64,000 nucleotides of DNA from Nodosilinea sp. E11. Its GTDB lineage: Bacteria > Cyanobacteriota > Cyanobacteriia > Phormidesmidales > Phormidesmidaceae. The stretch lies in the NCBI RefSeq assembly GCF_032813545.1, contig NZ_CP136520.1, positions 4,396,001 through 4,460,000 of the forward strand, in the 5' to 3' direction. A model generated the notes under the pieces. It was not told where the DNA came from, did not search any database, and saw nothing but the letters and a program-made list of their open reading frames with translations. The position numbers and the translations under genes were made by a program. Of the stretch, positions 7,279 to 52,742 are shown piece after piece. The stretch's first letter is position 1. The number at the start of each line of letters is the position of its first letter.

Positions 7279-7576
7279 TTTTGAGCTTAGCCCCTCGGTC
7301 TGTAGGGAAAGGCCCAAAATTCTAGGGGCTGAGTTGCTAAACAGTCTGCGGGATGAGGGCGATCGCGATGCGATCGCCTTGGGCGGCTATAAGTATTTCT
7401 AAATATGGACGTTGCTCACTACAAAAAGAGACTTCCAATATACTTTTCTAGACTGTGCTAGACCCATAAACTAGCCTATAGATTGGCTCAGTCTTGTAAC
7501 TATTAATACCTTCAAGTCACCCTAAACTGAGGGTGGATCTAGCTCAATCAGTTGGTCGTTAAATGTAACCTTTGGT
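7279..7576 (+). other. Intergenic stretch before riboswitch 2
   Basis: No gene recognised. It contains a doubled HIP1-type site near 7360-7378 (GCGATCGCGATGCGATCGC) just downstream of the ATPase gene, and an AT-richer part before the promoter. Confidence 0.5.
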
Positions 7577-7606
7577 TTGACACTTTTTGGCCTTAGCGCT
7601 TACAAT
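7577..7606 (+). promoter_or_regulatory. Sigma-70 promoter of riboswitch unit 2
   Basis: TTGACA at 7577-7582 and TACAAT at 7601-7606 are separated by 18 bases. Transcription should start near 7613, right at the beginning of the conserved leader. Confidence 0.8.
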
Positions 7607-7612
7607 GAAAAG

Positions 7613-7787
7613 AATCGAACAAGTCAGCCTAGTCTATCGGTACTTAGTACCCATAGAGCGGGGGAACCAGTAAAGGGGCTAATCTCCGAGTTCTAAATAC
7701 CCAAATGAGGGTAATCGGAGAAGGACATCTCTCAGTCCTAGCCCGTCAGCTAACCTCGTCGGCATTGAGAGGAGATTGAATCGTCAG
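7613..7787 (+). promoter_or_regulatory. c-di-AMP riboswitch (ydaO/yuaA leader), copy 2
   Basis: This is nearly identical to the leader at 3487-3660, with the same GAGCGGGGGAACCAG, CCCGTCAGCTAACCTCG and GAGAGGA blocks. The first hairpin changes only in its loop (GGTAC-TTA-GTACC), and the second long hairpin changes in the loop (AAATGA instead of ACTAGA). The pattern fits a functional RNA under selection. It precedes the USP/antiporter genes. Confidence 0.9.
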
Positions 7788-19832: not shown

Positions 19833-22028
19833 ATGACATTGCAAGAGCAGAGCATCGGCGACAGCCAAATTGAAGATAGCCAAGTTCAGCTCACTCAGGC
19901 TGAGGGGGATGCGGTTAGCTTTCAAAATAGCCACGATAATCGGGTCACGATCAACAACACAATCTTGCGGTTGTTTGGTCAGCCTGTTGCCCCTGAGGTG
20001 GATTGGGATTGGGCAACGCGGCTGTTGGAGCAAAAACAGCTCCCAGACATTCGCAAACGGTTGACCGATACTCTGGGCAGAGAGCGCCAGCTGATGGCAG
20101 TGGCGCTGCAAGAGCAGTTGGGCTGGGTGGGGCGATCGCCGTTAGAAAGTGAACGAACTTTACAGGTACAAGGAAAAGACCAGGGCAGTCTCGACCCCGG
20201 CCAGCTGCTGATTGAAACTTTTGGGCGAGACGACATTGCTGGCAAGCTGCTGATTTTGGGCACCCCAGGGGCAGGCAAAACCACGGCCCTGCTGAGCTTG
20301 GCTGAGCAGCTGGTCTGTGGCGCACTGGCCAAACCAAAAACGGTGATCCCCGTTCTGTTTGAACTCTCTACCTGGCGCAAAGACAATCAGAGCATTCGCG
20401 ATTGGCTGATTGAGCAGCTGTATGAACAGCACAACGGCAACCGCAGAGCCAAACTCTACGAGCAGTGGCTCGATCAGCAGGTGTTGCTGCCCCTGCTGGA
20501 TGGTTTAGATGAGCTAGGGTTTGAGCGCCAGCAAAAATGCACTCAAAAGCTAAACGAGTTTGCGCGGCAGTACCCGAAGCTGGTGGTCTGTTGTCGGGTG
20601 AAGGAATTTGCCCAGGCCAGTATTAAGCTCAAAGAACTAAGGGGGGCCGTCTGTTTGAAACCCTTATCGGATGAGCAAATTCAGGCCTATCTGGAGACAC
20701 GACGGTCGCCGCTGTGGTCGGTGATTAAGTCTAGTCCTACGCTGCAAACCTTCTTGAAGCCTACAGCTGAGGGTGATCCGGGGCTGCTGCGAATTCCGCT
20801 GTTTGTCACCCTGGCGGCCAGCGCCTACAATCCCCAGCATCCGTTTCGCACCAAAGCAGACTTGCTGAATCAATACGTTGATCGCCAGTTATCACCAGAA
20901 GTGCGAGAGAGCGATCGCCGCAGCAACCTCAAAAAACGCGATTGGGCCTACACAACGCCAGAGCTAGAGCCAAACTGGCGACAAATCGAGCGCACGCTGA
21001 GTTGGCTGGCAGGGCAGCTTCAACAAACCAATACGGTAGATATTCTGATTGAGCAGATTCAGCCAAGTTGGTTAGAGTCAAAGGAAGCCCGACGGCAATA
21101 TCGGCTGGTTGTCTGGCTGATTGTTGGGCTAATTAACGGGCTGCTTAGTGGATTAATTATTGGGCCAATTGGCAAGTTAATTAGCGGGCCAATGATTGGG
21201 TTAATTGCAGGGCTAATTGGTGGGCTAGTTATTGGGTTATTTAGTAACCTGATTGGTGGAATGGTTTTAGGACTAATTACCGGGCTGAGTGATATTAAAC
21301 CTGTTGAAGCCTTTAAAGTTTCGATGACGTACGAAGTACAACAAAAAGTCTTTAAATTTTTGAGGTGGTCGTTGATATTTGGAATAGTTGGTGGGTTGAT
21401 GTTTGGGCTTATCGTTGGGCTAATTAGTGGGCTTGTATTCGAACTAATGTTTGGACTGATTGGCGGGTTGATGTTTGGACTGATTGGCGGACTAATTGTT
21501 GGACTGATTGATGGGCTGCTTTTTGGGCTGATTGGCGGACTAATTGTTGGACTGATTTACGGGCTGAAGCAAGATTTGCAACTACAATTGCGTTCAAACC
21601 AAGGCATTTGGAATTCGCTTCAAAGCTTTTTGTGGACAACTCTTTTAAGTTACCCGTTGGTAGTTGTCCTAGTCTTTGGCATCCTGGGACCGTTTGTCAT
21701 AGTGTCCCAGAGCATTACTGAGGGAGAGATCATCGGAGCGATCGTGAACTCTGCTTGGGAGGTGTTTCCCAAGTTTTTAGTGCCAAGTATCTTTGGCGCA
21801 CTACTGTTTGGATTTGTATCGGGTGGTGGGAAAGCCTGTGTTCAGCATGTGTGCCTGCGGTTTGTGTTCTGGCAGAGCGGTGTTGCCCCCTGGCACCTGG
21901 CCCAGTTCCTCAACTACTGTGTCGAGCGTCGGCTGCTGCAACGGGTCGGCGGTCGCCATCGCTTCTTGCACCGCGAGATCCTAGACCACTTCGCCCAACT
22001 CCAACCACCCAACTCTCCCCCCGCGTAG
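19833..22028 (+). CDS. NACHT NTPase with glycine-rich multi-pass membrane domain
   Basis: The 731-residue protein starts with a repeat-like N-terminus (IGDSQIEDSQVQLTQAEGD). The NACHT core has Walker A GTPGAGKTT (about 143-151), Walker B LPLLDGLDE (about 219-227) and a CCRVKEF sensor-like segment. After a helical region (about 300-420) comes a membrane domain (about 425-580) built of repeated GLIGGLIVGLI-type units, further helices to about 668, and a short C-terminal helix domain ending with FLHREILDHFAQL. NACHT proteins are STAND-type signal ATPases, and several bacterial ones act in phage defence. A pore-like membrane effector placed inside a NACHT protein is unusual. It follows the small gene by 51 bases. 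Confidence 0.85.
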   Translation: MTLQEQSIGDSQIEDSQVQLTQAEGDAVSFQNSHDNRVTINNTILRLFGQPVAPEVDWDWATRLLEQKQLPDIRKRLTDTLGRERQLMAVALQEQLGWVGRSPLESERTLQVQGKDQGSLDPGQLLIETFGRDDIAGKLLILGTPGAGKTTALLSLAEQLVCGALAKPKTVIPVLFELSTWRKDNQSIRDWLIEQLYEQHNGNRRAKLYEQWLDQQVLLPLLDGLDELGFERQQKCTQKLNEFARQYPKLVVCCRVKEFAQASIKLKELRGAVCLKPLSDEQIQAYLETRRSPLWSVIKSSPTLQTFLKPTAEGDPGLLRIPLFVTLAASAYNPQHPFRTKADLLNQYVDRQLSPEVRESDRRSNLKKRDWAYTTPELEPNWRQIERTLSWLAGQLQQTNTVDILIEQIQPSWLESKEARRQYRLVVWLIVGLINGLLSGLIIGPIGKLISGPMIGLIAGLIGGLVIGLFSNLIGGMVLGLITGLSDIKPVEAFKVSMTYEVQQKVFKFLRWSLIFGIVGGLMFGLIVGLISGLVFELMFGLIGGLMFGLIGGLIVGLIDGLLFGLIGGLIVGLIYGLKQDLQLQLRSNQGIWNSLQSFLWTTLLSYPLVVVLVFGILGPFVIVSQSITEGEIIGAIVNSAWEVFPKFLVPSIFGALLFGFVSGGGKACVQHVCLRFVFWQSGVAPWHLAQFLNYCVERRLLQRVGGRHRFLHREILDHFAQLQPPNSPPA

Positions 22029-46703: not shown

Positions 46704-47642
46704 ATGGCAGGGGAAAAGAAATCGGCGATGCAGTGGATGCAAGTTAGGTCGTGGTTACGCCTCTCGGCCATGGCCCTGCTGACCACCCTGGCTGCTGCCA
46801 CCCCAGCCCGATCGCAATCTACCGCTATTCTGCAAGAGTCGCTGCAGCTGGCGGTTTGTCTAAACGACTGGCCAACGGCGATCGCCCGCGCTAGCCAAAT
46901 CGAACAGGTGCCTGGTCTGCCCGTCAAAACCCGCGCCGAGCTCGTCGGCTGGCGTCGCCAAATGCAGCGGTTTCACCTCAACCAAACCGCGGTTCCAAAC
47001 ATTGCCGGTTGTGAGCCAGTGCTCGCGGGGTTTGGCATCCCCGGCTATACGGGGCGGCCCATCCAGATCGATCGCGCGCTGGCCTCCAGGCTGGGTTTAG
47101 GTAGCCCCAGGGTTGACCAAGCCATTCGCCAAGAAGAAGCTCTGTGGCAAGCTGGGTTAGGCGTTACCACCGATACCCCCCTAAGCCCCCTGGCGGCGGC
47201 CCGGCGCATTAACACCCGCAGCGGCAGTGGTGTCTCCACCGGAGCCGTTGGTCGTTGGATCGACGTTTACGCTTTTCTCGGGGCTCAGGGGGATGTGGCC
47301 GCTCTCGCCCTCGATGTGATCGAGCAACGCCAAGGCCTTCTCTACGCTGACGACAACTCCCTTCTCTTTTTGTTTGATGCTGAAGGTCGCCTGATCACCG
47401 AGGCTGGTACTACCTCAGACCGACAACCCCGGCTTGATAACATCACTCTGCCCGCCACTGGCATGTACTACGCTGCCGTTACCACCCCCCAGCACCGCCC
47501 CGTCCTCGACGAGGCTGGTTTGATTACGGGTTGGCAAGGCATCGGCACCAGCGCCGTCACCTATACTCTGACCATCCATGGGCTCACACCGTCGCCGCAG
47601 CTAGGCCTAAGCAGCCGAGCGCTCACCCATCCACAGCCCTAG
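46704..47642 (+). CDS. Exported hypothetical protein with peptidase-C-terminal-like (PPC) beta domain
   Basis: The 312 residues have a signal peptide (LRLSAMALLTTLAAATPARSQS), a helical N-terminal part (about 40-90), and a C-terminal domain at about 185-295. The latter has WIDVYAFLGAQGDVAALALD, LLFLFDAEGRLITEAG and the G-M-Y-Y-A-A-V-T turn, the pattern of bacterial pre-peptidase C-terminal domains. No peptidase domain is present. Function unknown; periplasmic or secreted. It ends four bases inside the convergent FIST gene. Confidence 0.65.
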   Translation: MAGEKKSAMQWMQVRSWLRLSAMALLTTLAAATPARSQSTAILQESLQLAVCLNDWPTAIARASQIEQVPGLPVKTRAELVGWRRQMQRFHLNQTAVPNIAGCEPVLAGFGIPGYTGRPIQIDRALASRLGLGSPRVDQAIRQEEALWQAGLGVTTDTPLSPLAAARRINTRSGSGVSTGAVGRWIDVYAFLGAQGDVAALALDVIEQRQGLLYADDNSLLFLFDAEGRLITEAGTTSDRQPRLDNITLPATGMYYAAVTTPQHRPVLDEAGLITGWQGIGTSAVTYTLTIHGLTPSPQLGLSSRALTHPQP

Positions 47643-48889
47643 GGCTGTCGGCAAATGCCAAACACCGAGGTAAACCCGTGCAGAAACGTGGTCTGTCCTA
47701 AAGGGCCAATCTCCCCTCCGCAGAAAAAGCCGCCCAAGGGCACCCCCGGCAGGTATTGGGCAAATAGACCCGAGTCAAAGTTGGCCCGGTCATAAAGGCC
47801 AGCGCCGCGCCCCATACAAGAAAACATCAGCGCCCCCACCGGCGAGGTGTCCACCGGGGTTTGCTGCTGGTAGCGTTGCAGCAAGTTTTCGAGGTCAAGG
47901 GCCGAGGTTTGAGCGTCGCGCAAGTGAAACTGCACCCGTTGCCCTGGGCGCAGGCGATCGCCCACGGCGATCGCCCCCATTTTGGGGTCTACTCCCAGCA
48001 GCGTGCGAATCAAAAAGTCGCCAGGGTCGAGGCTAAGCTTGAAGCTGTCCTGGGCTATGCCAATAAAGAGAGAACTCTGGGCCAGCTTGCGCTCGGCCTC
48101 AGACAGGGTTTCGAATAGATCCTGCAATAGCTCCAGAGGGGGACGCACCGCCTCTCCCTCCTCAGGACGACCCAGGGATAGCAAAATGTTGCGCTCAGCT
48201 TTCTCAACCTGGTAGACCGGACCAATCGGGCGGCACCCCTGAGCCACAATGGCATCTAAGACCACCGGCCCCGAGAGAGCAACCCCCACAATCCCTTCGG
48301 TGTGCAACGTGCGATCGCAAAATAGACCGCTGTGGCGATTGAACCCGTCGACACTCGCCAGACCACCAATCTTTACCCCACTGGGATAGGCGAAATCTAG
48401 CCCCTGCAGCAGATCCGTCACGCTCGACGAAAAGGGGTCGGCCATCAAAATAAACTGCGGGTTGTCCTCTGGGGCCACCCCGATCAACTCCGCCCAGGCC
48501 ATTGGGGGGCTATCTAGGTCGGGCAAATTGTCTGCCGACAGATGGAAGCTCCGCACCGCCACCCCCGGCAGCACCGCTAGGGTCAGACTCAGTGCCGGTG
48601 TGTCTTCCAGTTCCTGGGGCTGACTGTGGGCGTCCATCCCCACAATGCCGCCGCCACTACACCCCACCAAAACCGGCAAAGGCAGCAAGTCCTGTAGCAG
48701 AGGCAGCAGACGGGCAAACTCACTCGTAAACGACGATGAAATAAACACCAAACCCAGGGTAGGGGGTGCCGTCAAACGACCCTTAAGTTGGGCTACTACG
48801 TCTTTCACTGCCCCTTCCAACGACGGGCAGGTAGACACAGCGTTGGCCCACTCCATGGTGGGGTTGGGTTTTTGGGGAATGTCGCTCAT
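47639..48889 (-). CDS. FIST domain signal protein
   Basis: The 416 residues carry FIST_N (about 40-210: LGLVFISSSFTSEFARLLPLLQDLLPLPVLVGCSGGGIVG) and FIST_C (about 225-390: AVGDRLRPGQRVQFHLRDA, GALMFSCMGRGAGLY, VPLGGFFCGGEIGPLG). FIST domains bind small ligands such as amino acids and pair with signal kinases or transport systems. No fused output domain is present, so it could act with a kinase encoded elsewhere. It overlaps the exported-protein gene by four bases tail to tail. Confidence 0.85.
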   Translation of the reverse strand: MSDIPQKPNPTMEWANAVSTCPSLEGAVKDVVAQLKGRLTAPPTLGLVFISSSFTSEFARLLPLLQDLLPLPVLVGCSGGGIVGMDAHSQPQELEDTPALSLTLAVLPGVAVRSFHLSADNLPDLDSPPMAWAELIGVAPEDNPQFILMADPFSSSVTDLLQGLDFAYPSGVKIGGLASVDGFNRHSGLFCDRTLHTEGIVGVALSGPVVLDAIVAQGCRPIGPVYQVEKAERNILLSLGRPEEGEAVRPPLELLQDLFETLSEAERKLAQSSLFIGIAQDSFKLSLDPGDFLIRTLLGVDPKMGAIAVGDRLRPGQRVQFHLRDAQTSALDLENLLQRYQQQTPVDTSPVGALMFSCMGRGAGLYDRANFDSGLFAQYLPGVPLGGFFCGGEIGPLGQTTFLHGFTSVFGICRQP

Positions 48890-49243
48890 CGGGTATGCCC
48901 CCTCTTCTCGTGGTTCCAGTCTAGATCGGATTGCTCATTCCCCCAGTAAATCGGCTCCGGTGCACAATGTTCAGCAGTTACCCCCACCATTGTGAAGCCA
49001 TGTAAAATAATTGATAGGTACTTATACTGAAGTTAGTGCAGGCGATAGCCGAGGTCTTAGCCTCGACCGTCAAGGACGATACCCTCCCTCAAGGGGTGCG
49101 GTTTTCATCGCCAGGCCATCTAAACGGGTGAAGTATACTAGGCCTGAAGTCGAAATAGTCTTATCCAAATCAACGGATGGGCTGAGATTATTCTCTAGGC
49201 CGCAGTCCCCACGGTAGTTGTTTACACACGAGAAAGGACGGAT
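48890..49243 (+). other. Intergenic stretch and probable CP12 leader
   Basis: No gene recognised. The last 200 bases before cp12 hold a small hairpin-rich segment (CCGAGGTC-TTAGCCTCGACC near 49050, CCCTCAAGGGG near 49090) that could be an untranslated leader. GAAAGGA at 49231-49237 is the ribosome site. Confidence 0.5.
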
Positions 49244-49471
49244 ATGAGCGAGAACATCAAAGAGCGCATTGAGAAAGAAATCGAAGATGCCCGTGCGGCC
49301 TGTGATACTTCCGGCAGCAGCTCCCAAGAGTGTGCCGCCGCTTGGGATGCTGTAGAAGAGCTTCAAGCTGAGGCTTCACACCAGCGCGAGAAAGGCACCG
49401 ACAAAACTTCATTAGAAGCCTACTGTGACAGCAATCCCGAGGCCGACGAGTGCCGGGTGTACGACACCTAA
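49244..49471 (+). CDS. cp12: CP12, Calvin-cycle switch protein
   Basis: The 75 residues match canonical CP12. The N-terminal Cys pair is ARAACDTSGSSSQECAAAWDAVEELQAEASH with the AWDxVEEL core, and the C-terminal pair is YCDSNPEADECRVYDT. When oxidised it binds GAPDH and phosphoribulokinase and stops carbon fixation in the dark. It is monocistronic. Both disulfide pairs are kept, so it should be fully functional. Confidence 0.95.
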   Translation: MSENIKERIEKEIEDARAACDTSGSSSQECAAAWDAVEELQAEASHQREKGTDKTSLEAYCDSNPEADECRVYDT

Positions 49472-49597
49472 ACCCCGTCAAATATCTGCTCAGATATTAA
49501 GACTCCCTTAAGAAGCGTCCTGGCCTACCAGGGCGTTTCTAGCGTTAATCACCCTCTTTGGCGCTTACTCCTTAAATCATCGCTGATTTACTTTTCC

Positions 49598-49663
49598 ATG
49601 GCCTTGACCGTTTACGGTATCCCCACCTGTAGCACCTGTAAGAAGGCCTTGCAATGGCTTTGA
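49598..49663 (+). CDS. 21-residue leader peptide created by the duplication
   Basis: ATG 49598 opens a frame that reads the same N-terminus (MALTVYGIPTCSTCKKALQW) and ends at TGA 49661-49663, a few bases into the second copy. Its stop overlaps the real start region (ATG 49654), so ribosomes finishing it may restart at the full gene. It is probably an accidental product of the recent duplication, but it retains the redox motif CSTC. Confidence 0.5.
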   Translation: MALTVYGIPTCSTCKKALQWL

Positions 49664-49709
49664 CCGTTTACGGTATCCCCACCTGTAGCACCTGTAAGAA
49701 GGCCTTGCA
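49598..49709 (+). repeat. 56-bp tandem duplication at the start of the Spx/ArsC-like gene
   Basis: Positions 49598-49653 and 49654-49709 are identical except one base (GCC versus GCT at the second codon). Both begin with ATG. The unit codes for the first 18.7 codons of the gene, so the duplication shifts frame. Confidence 0.95.
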
Positions 49710-50010
49710 ATGGCTAGATAGCCATGCGATCGCCTACGACTTCGTCAATACCAAAGAGCATCCGCCCAGCCAGGCTACCATTGCTGCCTGGGTAGCGGCC
49801 CTGGGCAGCAAACCCATGCGTAACACGTCAGGGCAGTCGTACCGAGCCCTCGGAGACGAAAAACAAACTTGGAGCGATCTTGACTGGATTGAGGCCTTCA
49901 GCCAAGACGCCATGCTGCTGAAACGGCCTCTATTTGAGAAAGATGGTCAAGCTGTTTTGGTTGGCTTTCGAGCCTCTGAGGCTCTCTTGCAAACTACCCT
50001 AGGCAGTTAG
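49654..50010 (+). CDS. Spx/ArsC-like thioredoxin-fold protein
   Basis: The 118 residues have the ArsC/Spx fold with the CxxC motif GIPTCSTCKKALQWLDSHAIAYDF (about residues 7-30) and the later LIDWIEAF-type helix and LLKRPLFEKDGQAVLVGF, which contains the K-R-P-L-F segment of ArsC/YffB enzymes. It may reduce a thiol target or act as a glutathione-dependent reductase. The full-length start is ATG 49654; upstream is the duplicated fragment. Confidence 0.85.
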   Translation: MALTVYGIPTCSTCKKALQWLDSHAIAYDFVNTKEHPPSQATIAAWVAALGSKPMRNTSGQSYRALGDEKQTWSDLDWIEAFSQDAMLLKRPLFEKDGQAVLVGFRASEALLQTTLGS

Positions 50011-50179
50011 TTACTGACTGGGGAAATACGACAACCTCAACTGGGGGCAAGGTCTAGCAATCTATAACGCAAAGATGGCAGCTTTCGTCGCTCTAGGCGC
50101 TTTTTCCTCTAAGCTTGGGGTTAGACAACCTGGAAACATCAAGGACAAACCTCGGTGTAAGGGACTGCCATTTGGCCAA

Positions 50180-50216
50180 CCAAAAAAGGTTCCAACCCCC
50201 TGGGGATCGGAACCTT
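50180..50216 (-). terminator. Terminator of the CsbD gene
   Basis: AAGGTTCC...CCCC...GGGG...GGAACCTT forms an interrupted stem (50186-50216), and on the minus strand it is followed by TTTTTT. It lies 40 bases beyond the csbD-like stop. Confidence 0.75.
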
Positions 50217-50258
50217 AAGCGAGGTTATTTAACCTCAACAGCAGTAAGGCTTAATCAA

Positions 50259-50441
50259 TTAGTCAATGGCTCGCTTGACGTTGTCTTTTGCGTCTTCTAC
50301 ACCGTGGCGAACATCAGACTCAGCCTGCTTGGCTTTGCCTTTAGCCTGGGCTTCGCGATCGCCAGTTACCTTACCGGCACCTTCTTGAACTTTGCCTTCT
50401 ACATCTTTGGCAGTTGCTTTGGCTCTATCTTCAATAGACAT
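50259..50441 (-). CDS. CsbD family stress protein
   Basis: The 60 residues are highly charged and helical (EDRAKATAKDVEGKVQEGAGKVTGDREAQAKGKAKQAESDV), matching the CsbD family. Such proteins rise under general stress; their activity is unknown. A clear ribosome site CCTCAGGAGACG (minus strand) precedes the ATG at 50441. Confidence 0.92.
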   Translation of the reverse strand: MSIEDRAKATAKDVEGKVQEGAGKVTGDREAQAKGKAKQAESDVRHGVEDAKDNVKRAID

Positions 50442-50675
50442 AGCGTAATCGTCTCCTGAGGAGTTACTTCTACAGCTTAGAAAGAAGCTATACCATTACC
50501 CTCTATAGGGAGGCAGAAAGCTATCTCTGTCAAAATGTAGGCCTTGTTACCATTAGTTCCTGCAGGTTTGCCAGGTGAACAGTGCAGGTTTGCTTCTAGG
50601 GAGTATCCTGAAGCATCATGGGTGGCGGGTCTCTCAGTAGGCTTTCAACTCAGGACTTGAACTGGGGTTTGAACT

Positions 50676-52742
50676 ATGGAGTATTGGGAATTTCTGCTGC
50701 AAAAGGAGGGAGACCAAAGCTGGTTGCCCCTCGATACCGCTCAGGTAGAAATTTTAGAGGGTCGCTACCGGGTGATGGTCCATACCAGTCAGACCAATAC
50801 TCCGGTGCACATTCAAATTAGTCAGCTGTCTCCCGAAGGAGACAGACTAACCGCCAATGCCCCTAAGCCAACCCCTAAACGACGCACTTTGCGCCGCCAG
50901 GGAGAAATCAACAACAACGGGTTAATGGTAGTCATGCCCTTCACTCGCCTGGGCGAAGGCATCTGGGACCTTCAATGTGCTAGCGCAGCCGAGGCGGAGC
51001 AGAGCAGCACCGCCTCAGCCAAAGAAAGGACTAAAGAAACGCCTAAACCCTGGCGCTATGCCGTGCAGCTGCGGGTGGTTGCCCAAGACTCTGTCGATGA
51101 TGACGACTGGTTTGCCGACGACGGTAGTACTGGTCTAGGGGCCATGAGCGCCGACCAGCTACCTGGGGGTACTATAGCCGCCCATCCGCCGTCAAACGCT
51201 ACACCTGCCCTCGATCTCCGGGCTGTTGCCGCCGCTATGGATGCGTTTCAGATTCAGCTGGCGGCTGATGCTTCAGACCAGGTCTTGCCCTATGCTCTGA
51301 CCCTACCCCACACGGCCCTGCTGGGTAGCGAGGGGGAGCTGCTGGAGCTAACCGCCACGGTGACCGCTCAGGCCGCAGGCGCTCCCCGCGATCTGCTCAC
51401 GCTGATTATGCGCCTGTCAGACCCCCAAACAACCGCGACCCTAGCCTTAGAGTCAGCTCCCGTAGCCACCCCCGGTCTACCCGCTCGCCTGATGCTTACA
51501 GTGACGGTGCCCACTGGGTTGTCTACCCGATTACTGCTGGGCGAAGTGGGACTGTTAGCAGGTACTGAGGTAGTGGCGGTGCAGCGGTTTACGGTCACGG
51601 TAGATGTGGCGTTGCTGTTCGATGCGATCGCCAACCAAGCTGAGACCAAAGCCGACCTGAACGTTGTGTTTCCGGCTGACGATCTAGACCTAGATGCCGA
51701 TGAGACTGCACCACGCCCCCCTGCCCCCGACCTCAAAACCTGGGATATTGTGAGCCGGGGAGCGCCCCCTCGGAAAATGCCAATTCTCACCTTGCCCCGC
51801 AGCAGTCCAGGGCTACCTCCAAAGATTTACTATCCCTCTTCCTACGAAGCTGCGGCCCACCAGCCCTCTCTTCCCCTCGTGGGTCGCACCAAGCTTTCTC
51901 CTCGGCCAGTCCAGGCAGAGGAAGGCTCTACTGCTCCGATAACCGGTCACCTAACTAACCCAGCGCCCAAGCGGGGGCTAAGTTTGCCTCCCCTAGCCTC
52001 CCCTCAACAGACCGACGACCCTGCGGCTGTTTTAGCTGAGCAATCGCTTACCGTTCGCTCAAAAGCTCAAAACCAGGCACCTCAGCTCATCTCCCATGAG
52101 GCCATGGGCTTTAAAGACCTGAAGCTGCAAGACCGCTTCTGGAATCGACTCAATGAGCTAGCGGTCAATCTTCAGCAGGAGGCCGTAGACAACCGGGCCA
52201 CCGTCGATGTTGACCCTGGAGACACTCCCGCTTCTGAAGCGCCCCTGGAGGCCACCCCACAGTTTGTTCCCTTTGCGGGAGAAGTGGTGATTTACGAGGA
52301 CGAAGATCCTACTCTGATTGACTTAAAAACGGCCCTATCCCCTAATCTAGCTAAGGAATCAGGGGATGCAGCCGAGACAGTCACACCACCGATGCCAAGT
52401 CTGGACTTGCCAGAGGGCGATCTCATTGCCGGTGACCCGATAGTCGTGACCTTGCGGGTGCCCTTTCACCCAAACCGTTTGTACCTAAAAGTTTGGATCA
52501 CTGATCCCCAAACTCGCACCCTAGCTGACGAACCGCGCCAACTCATGAACCTGCTGCCCAACGGCCAGGGGCAGCTTGAAGGCAGCCTACAGCTCACAGT
52601 ACCTTTAGGCTGCCTAGAGGCCTGGTTTGAGGCCATTACCATTGACATGATGACTCAGCAAGAGAGCTACAAAACCTCAGTTAGCCGAGCTATTACCCCT
52701 GCTGGGCTATCTTCTCCGTCCTTAGACGATTTTCAGCTTTAG
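50676..52742 (+). CDS. Large hypothetical protein with beta-rich ends
   Basis: The 688 residues begin MEYWEFLLQKEGDQSWLPLDTAQVEILEGRYRVMVHT, a beta-strand pattern, followed by a long Ala/Pro-rich middle (about 340-470) that is likely disordered. The C-terminal 150 residues return to a strand pattern (VTLRVPFHPNRLYLKVWITDPQTRTLADEPRQLMNLLP) typical of immunoglobulin-like or filament-associated domains. It has no signal peptide. I recognise no named family, but homologues with this layout are common in filamentous cyanobacteria. It is monocistronic. Confidence 0.6.
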   Translation: MEYWEFLLQKEGDQSWLPLDTAQVEILEGRYRVMVHTSQTNTPVHIQISQLSPEGDRLTANAPKPTPKRRTLRRQGEINNNGLMVVMPFTRLGEGIWDLQCASAAEAEQSSTASAKERTKETPKPWRYAVQLRVVAQDSVDDDDWFADDGSTGLGAMSADQLPGGTIAAHPPSNATPALDLRAVAAAMDAFQIQLAADASDQVLPYALTLPHTALLGSEGELLELTATVTAQAAGAPRDLLTLIMRLSDPQTTATLALESAPVATPGLPARLMLTVTVPTGLSTRLLLGEVGLLAGTEVVAVQRFTVTVDVALLFDAIANQAETKADLNVVFPADDLDLDADETAPRPPAPDLKTWDIVSRGAPPRKMPILTLPRSSPGLPPKIYYPSSYEAAAHQPSLPLVGRTKLSPRPVQAEEGSTAPITGHLTNPAPKRGLSLPPLASPQQTDDPAAVLAEQSLTVRSKAQNQAPQLISHEAMGFKDLKLQDRFWNRLNELAVNLQQEAVDNRATVDVDPGDTPASEAPLEATPQFVPFAGEVVIYEDEDPTLIDLKTALSPNLAKESGDAAETVTPPMPSLDLPEGDLIAGDPIVVTLRVPFHPNRLYLKVWITDPQTRTLADEPRQLMNLLPNGQGQLEGSLQLTVPLGCLEAWFEAITIDMMTQQESYKTSVSRAITPAGLSSPSLDDFQL

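Follow-up and report, generated by a model that had tools for sequence, protein, structure and literature searches.

A probably recent 56-bp tandem duplication at the start codon of a cyanobacterial ArsC/Spx-like gene that leaves the protein unchanged

The 5' end of a single-copy gene for an ArsC/Spx-like protein in a Nodosilinea-type cyanobacterium, Nodosilinea sp. E11, carries two adjacent copies of a 56-bp block, and we consider it highly likely that they stem from a recent, probably near-neutral tandem duplication produced by slippage or template switching. The event looks like an accidental mutation of recent date rather than a designed leader peptide. The gene lies within a 64,000-nucleotide stretch of the genome that was analysed as a whole and is referred to here as the window; all coordinates are positions in the window unless another locus is named.

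The first copy (49598–49653, plus strand) opens with ATGGCC and the second (49654–49709, plus strand) with ATGGCT, which forms the junction. The copies lie head to tail with 55/56 identity and differ only at base 6, a C in copy 1 and a T in copy 2, which bears out the initial annotation on the length of the copies and their single difference. The period-56 match runs on rightward for six further bases (ATGGCT, 49710–49715, plus strand) and does not extend leftward at all. These six bases repeat the ATGGC that opens copy 1 and the full ATGGCT of the junction, and are presumed to represent the end-point microhomology. Tandem Repeats Finder reported the array at 49598–49715 with a period of 56, 2.1 copies, 98% matches and a score of 229, the highest among its 13 rows in the window. 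A 56-bp head-to-tail match of this kind is far beyond chance, and the duplicated pair occurs at one site in the 6.1-Mb genome. The junction had no match in viral contigs, as expected, and among the papers that literature searches on duplications and leaders listed, no title or opening lines of an abstract described a comparable duplication spanning a start codon.

The reading frames agree with the earlier proposal of a 21-codon first ORF followed by a full gene that is in frame only with the second start. From the first start codon (ATG1, 49598) the frame reads MALTVYGIPTCSTCKKALQWL and then meets a TGA at 49661–49663, giving an upstream ORF of 21 codons (49598–49663, plus strand) that is a stub of the gene's own N-terminus and whose translation is predicted only. 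From the second start codon (ATG2, 49654) an uninterrupted frame encodes the intact 118-aa protein (49654–50010, plus strand), identified by its ORF and by profile matches as an ArsC/Spx-like member of TIGR01617. The TGA of the stub begins four bases past the end of ATG2, and the two ORFs share 10 nt. Because the duplicated block starts at the start codon, copy 2 keeps an ATG of its own with the complete ORF behind it, and the protein is unchanged even though 56 bp is not a whole number of codons. Any block beginning at the start codon would leave a second start and the entire gene behind it, whatever its length; the frame change would fall on copy 1 only and reduce it to the 21-codon stub, with ribosomes presumably reaching ATG2 by direct or coupled initiation.

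The anatomy of the repeat suggests how it may have arisen. The presumed parent would have carried ATGGC at its start codon and again, out of frame, 56 bp onward, and the observed arrangement would have been produced by slippage or template switching, or else by unequal exchange, with the start ATGGCC and the distal ATGGCT as partners; the latter falls within the Gln-Trp-Leu codons CAA TGG CT. Adjacent direct copies with shared end-point bases (ATGGC, 5 bp; junction ATGGCT) are what microhomology-mediated tandem duplication leaves. The repeat resembles other short duplications formed in this way in its head-to-tail copies, few-base shared end-points and near-identity, and differs from them in nothing of kind, except that here the block begins exactly at a start codon and the ORF survives a frame-changing length.

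The C/T difference coincides with the junction, at the end of the shared ATGGC. A later mutation is therefore not required to explain it, and it is weak evidence for change after the event. Either the end-point lay just beyond the distal T and the copies have stayed unmutated, or the parent had GCT at codon 2 and copy 1 subsequently changed by one base. Four of 29 relatives use GCC as codon 2 and none uses GCT, and GCC is the commonest alanine codon (8802 of 16979 in sampled ORFs); together these counts mildly favour a GCC parent that acquired the T from the distal end-point. Against so tidy an account, a simple slip with 5-bp pairing would place copy 1's base 6 at the junction. A T there calls for a mismatched end that was extended, or for a GCT parent and one subsequent substitution in copy 1. 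Under either option the copies have hardly diverged. The two end-point sites match at five of six bases in five of the 29 relatives as well, so the opportunity for such a duplication is not peculiar to this strain.

The comparison with relatives places the single-copy state first. The gene is present in 53 of the 63 genomes of the family set, which is also the full order-level set and samples one genome per species, and a second N-terminal match occurs in the Nodosilinea sp. E11 genome only. All 52 other gene-bearing genomes have none, a distribution that agrees with the single-copy ancestor expected for microhomology-mediated tandem duplication, at a sampling of one genome per species. In the 29 of these 52 genomes whose start regions were read, the region is single-copy throughout. 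The claim that the duplication is young finds support in the 55/56 identity, its age, like any polymorphism, being our interpretation. As the nearest relative shares only 85% protein identity, it is the identity of the two 56-bp copies that speaks for recency, and gene conversion between the copies could likewise hold them alike.

The named relatives are Nodosilinea and Leptolyngbya-type cyanobacteria. Genes for a FIST protein, CP12, the ArsC-like protein and CsbD and an ORF of 688 aa were found together within 6.3-kb loci in all eight of the closest named loci (L003–L010; 18 loci searched). In the window, the corresponding group, in which the 688-aa ORF has no Pfam match, spans 47639–52742 and is kept together in related cyanobacteria. 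The CP12 gene (49244–49471, plus strand), as the conserved upstream neighbour, provides a reference for placing the native start. ATG1 lies 126 bp and ATG2 182 bp beyond the CP12 stop; in ten relatives this distance to the start codon ranges from 109 to 242 bp, with six at 109–137 bp. ATG1 lies at the usual distance and thus most likely occupies the native start position, although ATG2 also falls within the range of the relatives and the gap is therefore only mild evidence.

The duplication is known from one assembly only, and an assembly or sequencing artefact, in which the true genome would be single-copy, has to be weighed. We think this unlikely. The contig comprises 5,458,963 bases in an assembly of seven contigs, which suggests the use of long reads, and these would easily span 112 bp. 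Assemblers collapse short repeats more often than they add them, which also counts against an artefact, and the T at the junction is the base expected from a real end-point at the distal ATGGCT.

The gene product belongs to a known protein family. It scored 111 bits against the NCBIfam model TIGR01617 (Spx/MgsR/ArsC-related subfamily; cut-off 75.05; residues 3–109), which places it in that subfamily, and 47.9 bits against Pfam ArsC PF03960 (cut-off 24). It fell below the curated cut-offs for arsenate reductase (glutaredoxin) (TIGR00014; 45.6 against 106.05) and for the transcriptional regulator Spx (NF002459; 31.1 against 123). The product therefore resembles the subfamily in passing its curated cut-offs and carrying a CxxC, and differs in lying well under the thresholds for TIGR00014 and for Spx proper; its role in cyanobacteria is putative. 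The best solved relative by sequence is 3fz4, a 'putative arsenate reductase', and the only matches in a protein search of the genome were the gene itself and the N-terminal fragment that the duplication created.

The stub's CxxC is a property of this protein family. It was found at the same position in 29 of 29 relatives, as CGTC in 18, CSTC in nine and CTTC in two; the starts were located by a codon pattern that itself demanded a pair of Cys codons at a spacing of three and then two Lys codons. A relative lacking these would have gone uncounted, and the pattern recovered all 29 loci to which it was applied. The idea that the duplication creates a redox-motif leader peptide in its own right gains no support from this, as the peptide simply repeats the first 21 residues of the ArsC/Spx-like protein. 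A functional leader would require the 21-codon ORF to be translated and its termination by ATG2 to couple or tune translation of the redox protein, with the upstream ORF possibly redox-sensitive through its CxxC, and we judge this improbable. No leader copy was found in any of the 52 other matching genomes, so the upstream ORF shows no conservation, and the copies have diverged too little for selection on the stub to have left a trace.

The start signals are similarly unremarkable, with no Shine-Dalgarno match above random at either start. Pairing with what we take to be the anti-Shine-Dalgarno sequence gave +0.6 kcal/mol ahead of ATG1 and -4.2 kcal/mol ahead of ATG2; the latter value or lower occurred in 39% of 2000 random 22-nt stretches, and among 350 long ORFs, each read from its first ATG, 43% reached it. 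An AAGAAGG ahead of ATG2 was considered as a Shine-Dalgarno sequence supplied by the duplication and was dropped in view of the random stretches. The two start sites are alike in accessibility (mean unpaired 0.56 for ATG1 and 0.49 for ATG2), and the RNA fold of 49575–49740 is unremarkable (z -1.39). A scan of 49200–50300 revealed no promoter on the plus or the minus strand; the minus strand carried a single terminator-like site, a number about as in shuffled sequences. Rfam returned two sub-threshold lncRNA matches for 49000–50300 (TCL6_1 and ST7-OT4_3), which we take as chance.

What speaks for a functional leader is the 10-nt overlap of the ORFs, a geometry with known re-initiation. Coupling declines with intercistronic distance, and in E. 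coli starts that overlap the preceding stop are common and re-initiation at an overlapping start is established (PMC2268962); coupling between the stub and ATG2 is thus possible and, by this analogy, mechanistically plausible. For iraD, a natural short upstream ORF is reported to be coupled to its gene (PMC5574718). The stub resembles such coupled bacterial upstream ORFs in being short and in overlapping the main gene's start, and differs in having neither conservation nor a start signal and in being known from sequence alone. Still more remote, in our estimation, is a scenario in which the duplication made an unled gene devoid of a Shine-Dalgarno sequence into a two-cistron message, with a CxxC-bearing nascent peptide ending atop the real start (an upstream ORF at birth), and in which reversion of the 56-bp repeat toggles the population between coupled and uncoupled expression of the redox protein. 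On present evidence the duplication is an ordinary mutation. It provides a clean example of a frame-changing tandem duplication that leaves the protein intact and yields an upstream ORF in one step; should the stub prove to be translated and to alter expression, the locus would document the birth of an upstream ORF in nature.

Duplications of this kind form a normal background. Across 864 kb of the same genome, window included, a scan for copies at least 95% alike with periods of 20–400 yielded 20 rows, three of them with a period of at least 50 (56, 63 and 85 bp); the 63- and 85-bp repeats are thus the two near-perfect duplications of this size in the 800 kb outside the window. A related genome (G002) gave 11 rows in 400 kb, of which four were runs of N and were set aside, and one, a perfect 105-bp repeat, had a period of at least 50. 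By rough scaling, there are perhaps ten to twenty comparable duplications per genome.

The 105-bp tandem duplication of the related genome (L149, 2576–2803) has a length that is a multiple of three. The 85-bp repeat (L126, 7372–7617; contig C7 of the Nodosilinea sp. E11 genome, about 4,807,372-4,807,617) comprises two tandem units, each with a tRNA-Ala-like 5' half. These share a 25-mer at 7381 and 7466 and are followed directly by an intact tRNA-Ala (CGC) at 7545–7617; this last element alone was called as a tRNA, and the 85-bp units are possibly remnants of tRNA-site integration or of partial duplication. Elsewhere in the window, a long array built of 12-, 24- and 48-bp repeat units occupies 21125–21567.
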